Origin: Microcaldota archaeon
GTDB taxonomy: Archaea; Micrarchaeota; Micrarchaeia; Micrarchaeales; Micrarchaeaceae
DNA length: 64,000 nucleotides
Assembly: GCA_021828155.1 (NCBI GenBank)
Contig: JAKAST010000001.1
Coordinates: 1-64,000 of the forward strand
Reading direction: 5' to 3'
Positions 20,264-61,667 of this stretch are shown here, one piece after another. Made by a program: the position numbers and the translations under genes. The notes beneath the pieces were generated by a model. The model was given only the letters and a program-made list of their open reading frames with translations, searched no databases and had not been told where the DNA came from. Position 1 is the first letter of the stretch; each line of letters opens with the position of its first letter.

Positions 20264-23098
20264 AATTTTAAGCCACCTAGGGGATGGCTTGGCTATAGCA
20301 GCGATGAAGGCCGTGGCAAGCTGCGATAAGCCCGGGGTAGCCGCAAGTCAGGCTTTGAACCCGGGATTGCCTAACAGCGCACAGCAATGTGCGAGCACAC
20401 GCGGGGAACTGAAATATCTTAGTACCCGCAGGAAAAGAAAGCGAAAGCGATGCGGCGAGTAATGCGAATGAAAGCCGCACAGGGCGAACCGAATCCCGCT
20501 TTGCAAAAGGCGTGGAGATGTGGGGCAGCGCCGATCCAGGACATGAGCCGAATGCGTTGGAAAGCGCAGTCATAGAGAGTGACAGCCTCGTAGGCTAAGT
20601 GCGATGGACCTGCTGCCGGAGAGTAATTCCGCTTGAGTATGCGGAGTGAATATGGGGGCATTAAACCCCAACCCTAAATATTGGCTATAGACCGATAGCG
20701 AACAAGTAGCGTGAGCGAAAGCTGAAAAGAACCCACACGCGTGGGAGTGAAAAGATCTGAAACTAGGTGGTTACACGAAGGTAGGGCGCGGAAGGAATGA
20801 TGTGCGCCGAAGCGCGAGTCCGAGAGGGCTTAGCGAGGCGCAAGAACCAGTGTCCTATCATTCTTCTTGAAGCAAGAGCCAGGGAGTGTATGGATGTGGC
20901 GAGCCGTAAGGCGTAGCGAAAGCGAGAGCGCGCAGCATGCGAGGCGCGAGGTATGAAAATGCCCGAGTCACACTCATACGACCCGAAGCCACTGCGAACT
21001 ACGCGCGCCCAAGGCGAAGCTAGGCTAACGCCTGGTGGAGGCCTGCAACCTGTCATGGCATGCCCTGTTGGGTGAGGCGCGGGTAGCGGCGATATACCAC
21101 TCGAGCGTGGCAATAGCGGGTCCCCTCTGAAGTATCTTTAGGATAGCTCCGGGCGAGCTTGCGCACGCGGTAGAGCGACCGATTGATGGGTACGGATCCG
21201 AAAGGGTTCACCTGTTCGTCAAACTCCGAATGCATGCGCTGCGTAGACCCCGGGAGTCGGCGGTGTTGGGTAAGCTAGCACCGCGAGACTGCAAAGATAG
21301 TGACCAAGGTTAAGGTCCCCAAATCCTAGTTAAGTGCAAGAAAAGCGAGAAGCGCCACAGACAGCTGGGAGGTAGGCTCAGAAGCAGCCATCCTTCAAAA
21401 AACGCGTAATAGCGTACCAGTTGAGGCGTTCCTTTCTGAAAATATACGGGGCTAAACTAGGTACCGAGACCCTGGAGTGCGAAAGCACTGGTAAGAGGGC
21501 GTACGGCGCGGCTGGAAGCATGCGCGAGAGCACATGTGGACCGCGCCGCAGTGAACATCCTGGTGTTAGTAATAGCATATATGGGTGAGAATCCCATACA
21601 CCGAAAGCACACGGGTTTCTTCGCAACGCTTGTCAGCGGAGAGTTAGGCGATCCTAAGCGGCGGGCCAATCACCTCGTCGCAAAAGGGAAGCTGGTTAAT
21701 ATTCCAGCCCCTAACGTGTAGGAGTGGCAACACAAGGCAGATTTCTGACGCCTGGGGACAGGTCCGCAAGAAAGTGCAAAGGGCTGTGGAGTCTCGTTAT
21801 GAGGAGAAGCAGCTAAATGAACTGTTGGACTGATTTCCTGGGCCCGTGAAAAGGGAATCTGCAACGATCACGTTAGTCCGTACCTAGAACCAGTACAGGT
21901 GTTGCTGGCTTAAAAGGCCAAGGTGTGTCGGAATAACCATGGTTAGGGAATTCGGCAAAATAGTGGCGTAAGTTTTCGACAAGCCATGTCTGCGCCTGGT
22001 AAGCGCAGATGTCACTGACAAGGGAACAACGACTGTTTATCAAAAACACAACTCACCGCAAAGCCGAAAGGCTAAGTACAGTGGGTGACGCCTGCTCACC
22101 GCCAGTACGTGAACACCCTTTTCAAGGGGGATAAGCGCTGGCAAAGAGCGGGAGTAACTCTGACTCTCTTGAGGTAGCGTAATACCTCGTCACTTAATAG
22201 GTGACTTGCATGAAGGGCGTAACGATTGTTCCACTGTCCCAACCATGGATCCGGTGAACTCACTTCGTGGTGAATATGCCACGATCCTCCAGTGGGAAAT
22301 GAAGACTCTATGAAGCTTGACTACAACCTGCTGTTGTTGTCCGGTTCGCCATACATAGCGTAAGTGGGAGCGTCGATGCGTGCGCTGCGGCGCACGCGGA
22401 GCGACAATGTAACACCACTTTTGGCTTTCCGTACAGCTCACCCGAGAGGGGACAGCTACAGGCGGGTAGTTAGACTGGACGGTTACTTTCGATAGGGAAA
22501 CGAAAGCGACCAAAGCTCTGCTTAGGCGAGTTGGAAACTCGCCGCTAAGCAAAAAGGCAAATGCAGGGCTGACTGTGCGCTGAAAAGCGTGGCGCGCAGA
22601 CTCGAAAGAGGGGCTTAACGAACGTTGGTAGCTCTTTTAATGGGGCTCCAAGCTGTCAGACAAGTTACTCTAGAGGTAACCGATTCGTCGCCGGCGAGAG
22701 TTCACATCGACCTGGCGCATTGATACAACGTTATGGGCTTGGGTTATCCTGGTGGTGCACAAGCTGCCAAGGGTTGGGCTGTACGCCCATTAAAAACCCA
22801 CATGAGCTGCGTTCAGTACGTCGCGAGACAGTACGGTAGTATCTACTGGAGGTGTTAGTGCCAGAGGATAAGACCCCCTTAATACGAGAGGAACGGGGGA
22901 TCGGCGCCACTGGTGTACCTGTTGTGAATGCATTGCAGGGTAGCTACGCGCCAAATGGATAAGTCCTGAAAGCATCTAAGGACGAAGCCAGACCCGAAAC
23001 GAGGCACTAGGGCGGCCGCAATCGACGGCTTTGATAGGAGGGGTGCGCAAGCAGGGAGCTCACGCGACCTGTGAACATTCCCTTACTAACGCCTTATT
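20264..23098 (+). rRNA. rrl: 23S ribosomal RNA
   Basis: Recognised from start to end: the 5' region (GATGGCTTGGC...GCTGCGATAAGC), the L11/GTPase centre, helix 69 at 22151-22172, the P-loop near 22475-22482, the peptidyl-transferase ring and the sarcin-ricin loop (TACGAGAGG at 22883-22891). At about 2.83 kb it has no large intron. Several universally conserved bases differ (see findings), some with compensating partners, so it seems functional rather than decayed. It has its own promoter, is not linked to 16S, and no 5S gene follows. Ends are estimates from the flanking stem. Confidence 0.95.
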
Positions 23099-29463: not shown

Positions 29464-29473
29464 GGTTTAAATT
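29464..29473 (+). promoter_or_regulatory. TATA box for C/D RNA and histone
   Basis: aggtttaaat is centred about 26 bases before the C box of the guide RNA, so transcription should begin right at the RNA. It is the only promoter-like box upstream of the histone gene. Confidence 0.6.
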
Positions 29474-29492: not shown

Positions 29493-29553
29493 CCTGTGAT
29501 GAAAAGAGAGTCAGCTGAGCTAAGGCTATGATGTGGATCTTGAGTGCTGAAAA
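29493..29553 (+). ncRNA. Box C/D guide RNA in the histone 5' leader
   Basis: Boxes in order: C GTGATGA (29496-29502), 12-base guide, D' CTGA (29515-29518), spacer, C' ATGATGT (29528-29534, one mismatch), 12-base guide, D CTGA (29547-29550). Two 12-base spacers are the archaeal standard. The D' guide pairs 11 bases without mismatch with 23S 22160-22170 (helix 69). By the N+5 rule the target is C22164, equal to E. coli C1920. The second guide has no clear target here. The RNA ends about 13 bases before the histone ATG and shares its promoter. Confidence 0.8.
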
Positions 29554-29565
29554 TTGGGCGAGCGC

Positions 29566-29772
29566 ATGGCGATATCGAAGGGCGACGTGAAGAAATTCGT
29601 TAAAGAACGCTTCAACGTCATGATAGAGGATGAGGCCGCAGAGGAGATGGTCAGCATGCTGGAGAGCAAGGCGGACGAGATAGCCAGGTTTGCAGTGGAG
29701 CACGCGAAGAGGGGCAGCAAGGCAGTCTGCGCGGAGGACATAGACGCCTACAAGCTTGAGCACGGGAATTGA
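29566..29772 (+). CDS. Archaeal histone
   Basis: A 68-residue single histone fold: three helices with the ISKGDVKKFVKERFNVMIED, AAEEMVSMLESKADEIARFA and GSKAVCAEDIDAYKLE segments (given in parts). Such proteins wrap DNA as dimers and tetramers. The ATG follows a C/D guide RNA within the same leader. The next gene starts at the base after the stop. Confidence 0.88.
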   Translation: MAISKGDVKKFVKERFNVMIEDEAAEEMVSMLESKADEIARFAVEHAKRGSKAVCAEDIDAYKLEHGN

Positions 29773-53010: not shown

Positions 53011-54100
53011 GTGCAATAAGGTACCGACAATTGCGATGCGGCTTTCAGCCATCGACTCCAGTCGATGCTGCTGGAGGACACTGCTATCAGATTTCGACAG
53101 CCATGCAAGTCTGCTCGTGAGCTTCACGGGCGGCGTACGGCTCAGTAACGCGTAGTCAACCTAACGCACGGAGGAGCATACCCTCGGGAAACTGAGGTCA
53201 ATTCTCCATGGGCAAGGGCACCTGGAAGGAGCCTTTGCCGAAAGGGGCGCGAATTGCAGCGCTTCCGCCATGCGATGGGACTGCGTCGGATCAGGCAGAT
53301 GGCGGGGTAACGGCCCACCATACCGATAACCCGTAGGGGATATGGGAGTATGAGCCCCGAGAAGGGCACTGAGACAAGGGCCCTAGCGCTACGGCGTGCA
53401 GCAGGCGCGCAAACTCCACAATGCGCGTAAGCGTGATGGGGGGAATCTGAGTGGCTTACTTTGTAAGCCTTTTGCCAAGTATAGCAAGCTTGGCGAATAA
53501 GTGCTGGGCAAGACCGGTGGCAGCCGCCACGGTAATACCGGCAGCACAAGTGGTGTCCACGATTATTGGGCTTAAAGCGCTCGTAGCTGGCCTATGCCGT
53601 CTCACGTGAAATATTGGCGCTCAACGTCAATGCGCGCGCGAGATACCCATAGGCTAGGGAGCGGGTGAGGTCAGGGGTACTTACGGGGGAGGGGTAAAAT
53701 CCTGTAATCCTGTAAGGACCAACGGTGGCGAAGGCGCCTGACTAGAACGCATCCGACAGTGAGGAGCGAAGGCTAGGAGAACGAATCGGATCAGATACCC
53801 GAGTAGCCCTAGCAGTAAATGATGCAGACTCTGGTGTTGCGCGCGTCTTGAACGCGCGCAGTACCGTAGCGTAAGTGTTAAGTCTGCCGCCTGGGGAGTA
53901 CGGCCGCAAGGTTGAAACTTAAAGCAATTGGCGGGGGAGCACACAAGGGGTGGATGCTGCGGTTTAATTGAATCCAACGTCGGAAATATTACCAGAAGCG
54001 ACGGCAGGGTGAAGGCCAGACTGAAGATCTTGCCTGACGAGCCGAGAGGTAGTGCATGGCGACCGTCAGCTCGTGGTGTGAACTGTCCGGTTAAGTCCGG

Positions 54101-54617
54101 TAAGTTGACAGAGTGATGTGATGACACAGAAATTGAGGTTGACCCCAAAGACAAGCTACATGCTTGGTATGTATGTGCAGGGCACTCGTGAACGCATTGG
54201 AGTAACGTCCAAGAGCGAAGAGGTGATTGAGCGCTTCGTGAAGCTCGCGATGGATGAGTTCGGCATAGAGTCGGACCACATCCTTTTCGAGCAGAACGAG
54301 GGCGCGACTACCGCCTTCTTCTACAATTCAAAGCTCAAGAGACGTTTCGACAAGGCGCTGGAAAGGAGAGAGAGGCTCTTCAAGTACAGGAACGAGTACT
54401 CGGGCAATTACATAGCAGGCATGTTCGATGTGAGCGGCGGCAAAGATAGGTTCGGCCTGTATTTTCGCAGGCTGGAGCCCACAGACGCGCTCATATTGGA
54501 GAAGCTTGGAGTACATACGACAGGCAGGGCCCGCGTGCGAGTCACACACGCAGGCGAGCTCATCACGCTTATACGTGAGTACAGCCTCGTAATGTCGAAC
54601 ATCATTCGTTGACCCGG
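54101..54617 (+). other. 16S intron 1 (LAGLIDADG-encoding)
   Basis: About 517 bases inserted near E. coli 1099-1102 (GTCCGG...TAACGAGCG). CCGGTAA occurs at both borders, so the exact cut can shift by 7 bases; GTTGAC is also repeated just inside each border. Nearly all of the intron is one reading frame. Likely spliced by the tRNA-type endonuclease at a bulge-helix-bulge. Confidence 0.88.
54121..54612 (+). CDS. LAGLIDADG family intron protein, catalytic residues lost
   Basis: 163 residues. Two LAGLIDADG-type helices are visible: SYMLGMYVQGT (12-22) and NYIAGMFDVSGG (96-107), the single-chain two-repeat design. At the position of the catalytic Asp, motif 1 has Gly21 and motif 2 Ser105, so DNA cleavage seems lost. 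It may persist as a splicing helper or be decaying. ATG 54121 is preceded by an in-frame GTG. The frame fills the intron and stops 5 bases before its 3' border. Confidence 0.8.
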   Translation: MTQKLRLTPKTSYMLGMYVQGTRERIGVTSKSEEVIERFVKLAMDEFGIESDHILFEQNEGATTAFFYNSKLKRRFDKALERRERLFKYRNEYSGNYIAGMFDVSGGKDRFGLYFRRLEPTDALILEKLGVHTTGRARVRVTHAGELITLIREYSLVMSNIIR

Positions 54618-54890
54618 TAACGAGCGAGACCTTCGCCAACAGTTGCAACCTTGGCAGAGATGCTGGGGGCACTCTGTTGGGACCGCCTCTGTTTAAAGAG
54701 GAGGAAGGAGAAGGCGACGATACGTCAGTATGCTCTGAATCTTCTGGGCTACACGCGGCATACAAAGGTCGGCACAATGAGATGCAACGTCGAAAGGCGA
54801 AGCAAATCCCCTAAAACCGGCCTAAGTTCGGATTGAGGGTTGAAACTCACCCTCATGAAGCTGGAATCCCTAGTAATCGCATGTCACTAA

Positions 54891-55733
54891 ACTGTGACGA
54901 GCCGAAAGGCATATAGTAATCACCGTTAAATACAATAGCGGCGACTATGTGCCACCCAAACCCTTTGCAATCCTCTACGAAGAAGTAATGCAGGCACAGC
55001 GCAAACATCGCGATCTTGAGCCAGATATGCTCGTGGATTGCCCTGAGCACTTGCTTATATTCCGGTTGTCCCTTAGCATGGACCAGCGGAAATTTGCAAG
55101 AAAGCTGGGGGTAAGCCAGGGGACCATATGGGCGATAGAGAACGGATACCGAAAGCACATCAGCGCAAAAGTTGCATCTAAAATGCTTGACCTAATGGCG
55201 GCAGAAAAGATGCAGATTCCCACTGCCAAAATCCTAATGGCAAGGCGATCAGAGATTGCCATAAACGGGAGATTTGATGGGGAATATGCTAAGAGGATGG
55301 CTGATAGAGCGGCTTCAATGGAGATCGGCGTAAAGAGCGCCGTACTACAGAAACCGACAAAACAGGAAGCAGTTTTGCTAGATGAGCTGACTAGGCAAGG
55401 AATGGCCTTCCAGTTCCATGGTATAATCGAGGCCGGTAGGAAATTTGTCGTGGATTTTGTGTTTCCATCGAGCAGGTCTCCAAAGGTGGTTCTCGAAGCG
55501 AAAGATTTGCAGCTAAACTACAGGAAAAGGATGCAAGCAATAGATCTGGCATACAGAGCGCTCAAGATACGCCAAACCTACCCCCGCATCAAGCTAGTTG
55601 CGGTAATCGCCGGTGGTATACAAAATGATGCTTTAACTATACTCAAGGATGAGTATGACAAAGTCCTGCAAAATCCTTCTTCTGTAGAGGTTGCAAATAC
55701 TATAAGGGGTTTGGTCGGTTCGACAGTGTGAAT
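54891..55733 (+). other. 16S intron 2 (HTH-nuclease-encoding)
   Basis: About 843 bases inserted in the loop of helix 43 (near E. coli 1360-1365) between ATGTCACTA and TCGTGCGGTG. Border sequences ACTGT...ACAGT pair at the base of a stem, as expected for bulge-helix-bulge splicing. Borders are good to about 5 bases. Confidence 0.82.
54949..55731 (+). CDS. XRE-type HTH plus PD-(D/E)XK/Vsr-like nuclease, putative homing endonuclease
   Basis: 260 residues from GTG (or 247 from ATG 54988). Residues 34-70 form an XRE-type helix-turn-helix (MDQRKFARKLGVSQGTIWAI). A helical linker follows. Residues 137-222 look like the Vsr/DUF559/EDxHD nuclease fold: Glu140 in the first helix, then VVDFVFP (Asp169) and VVLEAK (Glu183, Lys185), followed by a helix and a hydrophobic strand (IKLVAVIAG). 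No LAGLIDADG motif. It fills intron 2, so a role in intron homing is the natural guess. AT-richer than the exons. Confidence 0.7.
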   Translation: MPPKPFAILYEEVMQAQRKHRDLEPDMLVDCPEHLLIFRLSLSMDQRKFARKLGVSQGTIWAIENGYRKHISAKVASKMLDLMAAEKMQIPTAKILMARRSEIAINGRFDGEYAKRMADRAASMEIGVKSAVLQKPTKQEAVLLDELTRQGMAFQFHGIIEAGRKFVVDFVFPSSRSPKVVLEAKDLQLNYRKRMQAIDLAYRALKIRQTYPRIKLVAVIAGGIQNDALTILKDEYDKVLQNPSSVEVANTIRGLVGSTV

Positions 55734-61606: not shown

Positions 61607-61667
61607 AATCAGCCCGCCTACTTATCGTCATAGCGAAACGCTCAGCGATTACCTCACTCATCACGAG
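61607..61667 (-). ncRNA. Box C/D guide RNA in the Exo5-like gene leader
   Basis: On the minus strand: C GTGATGA (61658-61664), 12-base guide, D' CTGA (61642-61645), 10-base spacer, C' ATGACGA (61625-61631, one mismatch), 12-base guide, D CTGA (61609-61612). The D guide pairs 8 bases with 16S CCGCCTAC (55769-55776), with C55772 at N+5, equal to E. coli C1402. The match includes the three bases unique to this 16S. The D' guide has no firm target here. The D box ends 3 bases before the Exo5-like ATG. Confidence 0.8.

Follow-up and report, generated by a model that had tools for sequence, protein, structure and literature searches.

The DNA analysed in this study is a stretch of 64,000 nt, referred to here as the window, from a Micrarchaeota genome (G000) of 590 kb and 85% completeness, whose close relatives are also Micrarchaeota and include Candidatus Micrarchaeum sp. 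A_DKE. On its forward strand, a TATA box, TTTAAAT (29466-29472), is followed by the 55-nt core of a box C/D sRNA (29496-29550) and then by the gene of a 68-aa histone-fold protein (29566-29772), the start codon of which comes 15 nt after the D box. The C/D guide sRNA in a histone 5' leader that was proposed in a preliminary description of this DNA is thus borne out.

The core was delimited from the sequence with a script and reads GTGATGA-AAAGAGAGTCAG-CTGA-GCTAAGGCT-ATGATGT-GGATCTTGAGTG-CTGA, which is the full C-D'-C'-D order of archaeal C/D sRNAs with RUGAUGA-like C and C' boxes and CUGA as D and D' boxes. On the forward strand the C box GTGATGA (29496-29502) is followed by the D' guide AAAGAGAGTCAG (29503-29514) and the D' box CTGA (29515-29518), and the linker GCTAAGGCT (29519-29527) leads to the C' box ATGATGT (29528-29534), the D guide GGATCTTGAGTG (29535-29546) and the D box CTGA (29547-29550). 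Both guides are 12 nt long and lie directly upstream of their boxes (about 10-12 nt is asked of this class), so that the boxes and spacings are canonical, as had been described. The GC..GC ends of the linker are retained in nearly all relatives and a short apical stem is possible there. The sRNA span gave weak Rfam matches below the gathering thresholds, sR3 with 22.8 bits against 41 and sR2 with 21.2 against 42, and therefore it is placed outside those families. No conserved terminal stem was found beside the C and D boxes in the alignment of 30 histone loci; the sRNA ends of N. equitans are likewise unpaired (PMC3491384).

The histone ORF of the window has no Pfam match at the default E, and a looser search together with the orthologues gave the histone fold (PF00808; E=0.006 for the window's own copy, whereas same-place orthologues exceed the cut-off, down to 3e-8). 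Its best match in the PDB, and solved relative, is HMfA, and judged by these matches ORF 29566-29772 is a histone fold. The centre of the TATA box lies 27 nt upstream of the C box, and the A/T content of the 30 aligned histone loci was found to be 83-100% at -30 to -24 and 93-100% at -29 to -24 before the C box. TTTAAAT is the only visible promoter for both the sRNA and the histone, and nothing resembling a TATA box was noticed in the stretch from the sRNA to the start of the histone. Given the usual archaeal TATA spacing, transcription would start near the first base of the sRNA and, with no inner TATA-like element, the histone transcript most likely starts with the sRNA.

The D guide and its place before the histone gene

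The D guide was compared with the anticodon arm of tRNA-Leu(CAA) of its own genome (ACGGA-CTCAAGA-TCCGT; gene at contig C11:23730-23827, minus strand). It forms 11 contiguous pairs through 29535-29545, with the N+5 position falling on wobble C34, and its next-best target reaches 8 pairs; the pairing threshold used was at least 9 consecutive pairs (PMC4644070). Every genome with a located tRNA has kept the loop CTCAAGA and, with it, the pairing to positions 2-11 of the guide. Positions 1 and 12 of the guide are free, and therefore the conserved duplex consists of 10 pairs. Covariation between guide position 12 and tRNA position 41 was considered and discarded, as none was seen and position 12 is free.

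All 30 histone leaders that were parsed, drawn from two families, contain the sRNA; D-guide positions 2-11 are identical in every one of them, and the D' guides vary; one further leader (G023) has no sRNA. The preliminary description had proposed a search of related genomes for the same leader and for covariation. The leader was recovered in this way, and no covariation was seen for the D guide; since the tRNA loop is itself invariant, this guide shows conservation without covariation. Of 301 genomes in the phylum, 239 hold the D-guide unit at up to one mismatch, and by our own count about 150 of the 164 genomes of the order do so. On this complementarity and conservation, the D guide, with C34 as its predicted target, is the overlooked and more important half of the sRNA; the earlier reading stood for the D' guide and helix 69, and it had missed this conserved part aimed at tRNA-Leu(CAA).

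The element could in principle be a chance resemblance, or conserved coding or promoter sequence, with no RNA gene. The strict C/D pattern, however, has 2 matches in the 64-kb window and 0 in 40 Markov-shuffled windows, and the element is conserved in some 150 genomes though its linker and D' guide vary. A list of the window's 12-mers that precede CTGA was set aside, being contaminated by antisense rRNA. This explanation is already contradicted and has a negligible probability.

The position of the sRNA is also strict. Across 40 genomes of the second family, 4-31 nt separate the end of the D-guide match from the histone match, and such a position across the order would suit an element which is mainly a cis-regulatory kink-turn leader, with L7Ae controlling histone translation and the guide role secondary or lost; regulation of translation by L7Ae has been suggested for archaea in PMC5539422. 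A regulatory leader, however, would have no need of ten invariant nucleotides complementary to the anticodon loop of a tRNA. The same guide, moreover, is found in sRNAs outside the order, and 0 of the 30 loci fetched there had a histone nearby (flanks of about 1.5 kb, E up to 1). We therefore consider the regulatory leader very improbable as the main role, and the sRNA-histone association looks specific to the order.

The tRNA-Leu(CAA) gene itself carries an insertion in the T-loop in most sampled Micrarchaeales (G000:C11:23730-23827, L153, L157, L163, L175 and others), which is absent in G072 and is probably an intron at a non-canonical position. In family f4 (L245, L247, L248, L249 and L253), the Leu(CAA) guide with its D box (ATCTTGAGTTCTGA) is present in two or three copies at a spacing of about 45-60 nt, and these repeats have no C box before each copy.

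The D' guide, helix 69 and the exchange of guides

The D' guide pairs through 29504-29514 with positions 22160-22170 (+) of the 23S rRNA in helix 69. The match of 11 contiguous Watson-Crick pairs, which had been described earlier, was recomputed; N+5 points to C22164 and the next-best target scores 8 pairs against these 11. C22164 is taken by us to be E. coli C1920, anchored on the conserved GUAAC...UGAC. The match had been called unlikely by chance and this agrees with our count, as shuffled guides of equal composition reached 11 or more consecutive pairs in 16S plus 23S in 7 of 20,000 cases. Two further statements on C22160 fared differently. C1916 had been described as an unusual change from A, which the guide was said to follow. 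The C is indeed present, but it is not peculiar to this genome, being found in 86 of the 87 order genomes with a match, and other helix 69 guides place T, A or G opposite it. The guide thus cannot be said to follow an altered sequence, and C1916 was ruled out as a sign of a guide tracking an altered site.

Among the 30 histone-leader sRNAs examined, the helix 69 type of D' guide is confined to the window genome and a single congener (G001), the latter with identical guide and identical target. The D' guide accordingly has no helix 69 match in the other 28, and archaeal sRNAs that target a tRNA often have no target for their other guide (PMC7994747). The sRNA may therefore be real with the D guide as its sole functional guide, the helix 69 match of the D' guide being a passing or inactive complementarity. 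Against this stand the 11 contiguous pairs, rare by chance, and the retention of the identical guide in G001. A second sRNA, moreover, hits the same site in many relatives and was not found in this genus by its exact pattern. Activity of the D guide alone is thus unlikely, and 23S C1920 is supported as the predicted target of the D' guide.

In most relatives, an AGAGAGTC guide directed to 1920 or 1921 rides on a different sRNA. This second sRNA, with CGAGGTATTT, is present by exact pattern in 94 of the 164 order genomes and has a comparable A/T peak before it. Its other guide is directed to helix 69 in 38 of 53 parsed copies, with N+5 at 1920 (17) or 1921 (21), so that the targeting of C1920 finds a parallel in other sRNAs of the order bearing a guide to C1920 or U1921. 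None of the three genomes of the genus has the exact CGAGGTATTT pattern, a result for the exact pattern only and with G000 at 85% completeness. Since the second sRNA was not found there, a new pairing of the helix 69 guide with the Leu(CAA) guide seems to have arisen in this genus.

In family f3, which lies outside the order, a single sRNA holds both the Leu(CAA) D guide and a CGAGGTATT D' guide, which matches the 23S rRNA just 3' of helix 69, whereas within the order the Leu guide is on the histone-leader sRNA and CGAGGTATTT on the second sRNA. The simplest reading of these arrangements would be a duplication and partition of the guides, followed by re-pairing of the helix 69 and Leu guides in the genus, in an order of events that we infer. 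For other archaea, PMC4644070 describes duplications, rearranged guides and shifts of register of a similar kind.

The D' guides of other genera show further variety. In genera g3 and g4, the D' guide of the histone-leader sRNA resembles a match to 16S GTAGTGCAT, with 9-10 pairs where 16S was available. The D' guides of genera g6, g16, g20 and g24 have a common GCGC core (AAAGCGCA, TTTAGCGCT and TTTTGCGCT); no reliable rRNA target was found for these GCGCA/GCGCT-type guides, and a tRNA target is possible.

Proposed function and relation to known systems

With good confidence, the element can be predicted to be a dual-guide archaeal C/D sRNA for tRNA-Leu(CAA) C34 and 23S C1920 which leads the histone transcript. 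Transcription from the TATA promoter would start at about the 5' end of the sRNA and run on into the histone gene. As the 5' leader of that transcript, the sRNA would have to be cut or trimmed out, and its excision would leave the histone with a leader ranging from a few nucleotides to about 30. L7Ae and Nop5 are expected to bind the sRNA, and fibrillarin would be guided to 2'-O-methylate the two RNAs; a fibrillarin gene is encoded in the genome (E=1e-75), and no Nop5 gene lies adjacent to it. The D guide would have the ancient and constant role at wobble C34, and the D' guide probably a recent, genus-specific one at C1920 of helix 69. It can further be speculated that the leader sRNA serves as a coupling device, C/D RNP assembly and excision deciding the release of a nearly leaderless histone mRNA, which we regard as rather doubtful. 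If true, such coupling would tie the supply of a chromatin protein to the capacity for tRNA and rRNA modification in Micrarchaeales, and with promoter-sRNA-ORF units at alaX and exo5 (described below) leader sRNAs would become a general expression strategy in these reduced genomes.

The sRNA class and its machinery are of known kind. TrmL, a protein methyltransferase of bacteria, methylates C34 of tRNA-Leu. Bacterial TlyA (23S C1920) and TrmL together address the same two chemical sites, but as stand-alone proteins without a guide RNA. In Pyrococcus, C/D guides for C34 of tRNA-Leu(CAA) are known (PMC7994747; snoRNAdb predictions cited in PMC7668247), and the predicted Cm34 of this tRNA in P. 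furiosus is among those undetected in one survey (PMC7668247). Compared by target, the Pyrococcus sRNA is alike in being a box C/D guide directed at this tRNA's first anticodon position; the Micrarchaeota sRNA differs by its position in the histone leader and, in this genus, by the extra helix 69 guide. Helices 68, 69 and 71 are listed as predicted hotspots of archaeal 2'-O-methylation by Dennis et al. 2015 (PMC4644070), so the helix 69 region is a known one. The archaeal C/D sRNAs described there are alike by region, whereas in the present case one sRNA combines the helix 69 guide with a guide to a tRNA.

According to the summary of Tripp et al. 2017 in PMC7994747, archaeal C/D sRNA genes that overlap the 5' end of an ORF are rare (7%) and lower the expression of the downstream gene. 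The sRNA described here lies likewise at the 5' end of an ORF, but it is kept at one gene across the order, and this retention ahead of the histone gene is notable because the arrangement is reported there as rare and costly. No C/D sRNA work on Micrarchaeota was found in our literature search. The Micrarchaeota set, its order-wide position in the histone leader (a notable organisation) and the apparent re-pairing of guides are new. Two specific 2'-O-methyl marks are predicted in a lineage of tiny archaea. The sRNAs also offer a natural comparison of guide evolution, in which one guide is frozen and its partner is swapped between genera, the helix 69 guide appearing to have been transferred between sRNAs.

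Some minor observations were made along with these results. In L259, L269, L271, L276, L277 and L282, an ORF comes within 9-20 nt after the CGAGGTATTT sRNA and resembles AlaX (alanyl-tRNA editing), a likeness resting on the FYPTGGGQ motif as read by eye; the two make another promoter-sRNA-ORF unit. A second strict C/D sRNA candidate of the window (61609-61664, minus strand; GTGATGAGTGAGGTAATCGCTGAGCGTTTCGCTATGACGATAAGTAGGCGGGCTGA), for which no convincing target was found, is preceded by a TATTTATA element, and its D box is separated by 3 nt from the ATG of an Exo5-like nuclease that follows. The 16S rRNA gene of the window (53055-54979) is about 1925 nt long and matches the full 1478-position archaeal model, which suggests an insertion or intron. 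The 16S and 23S genes lie about 30 kb apart.
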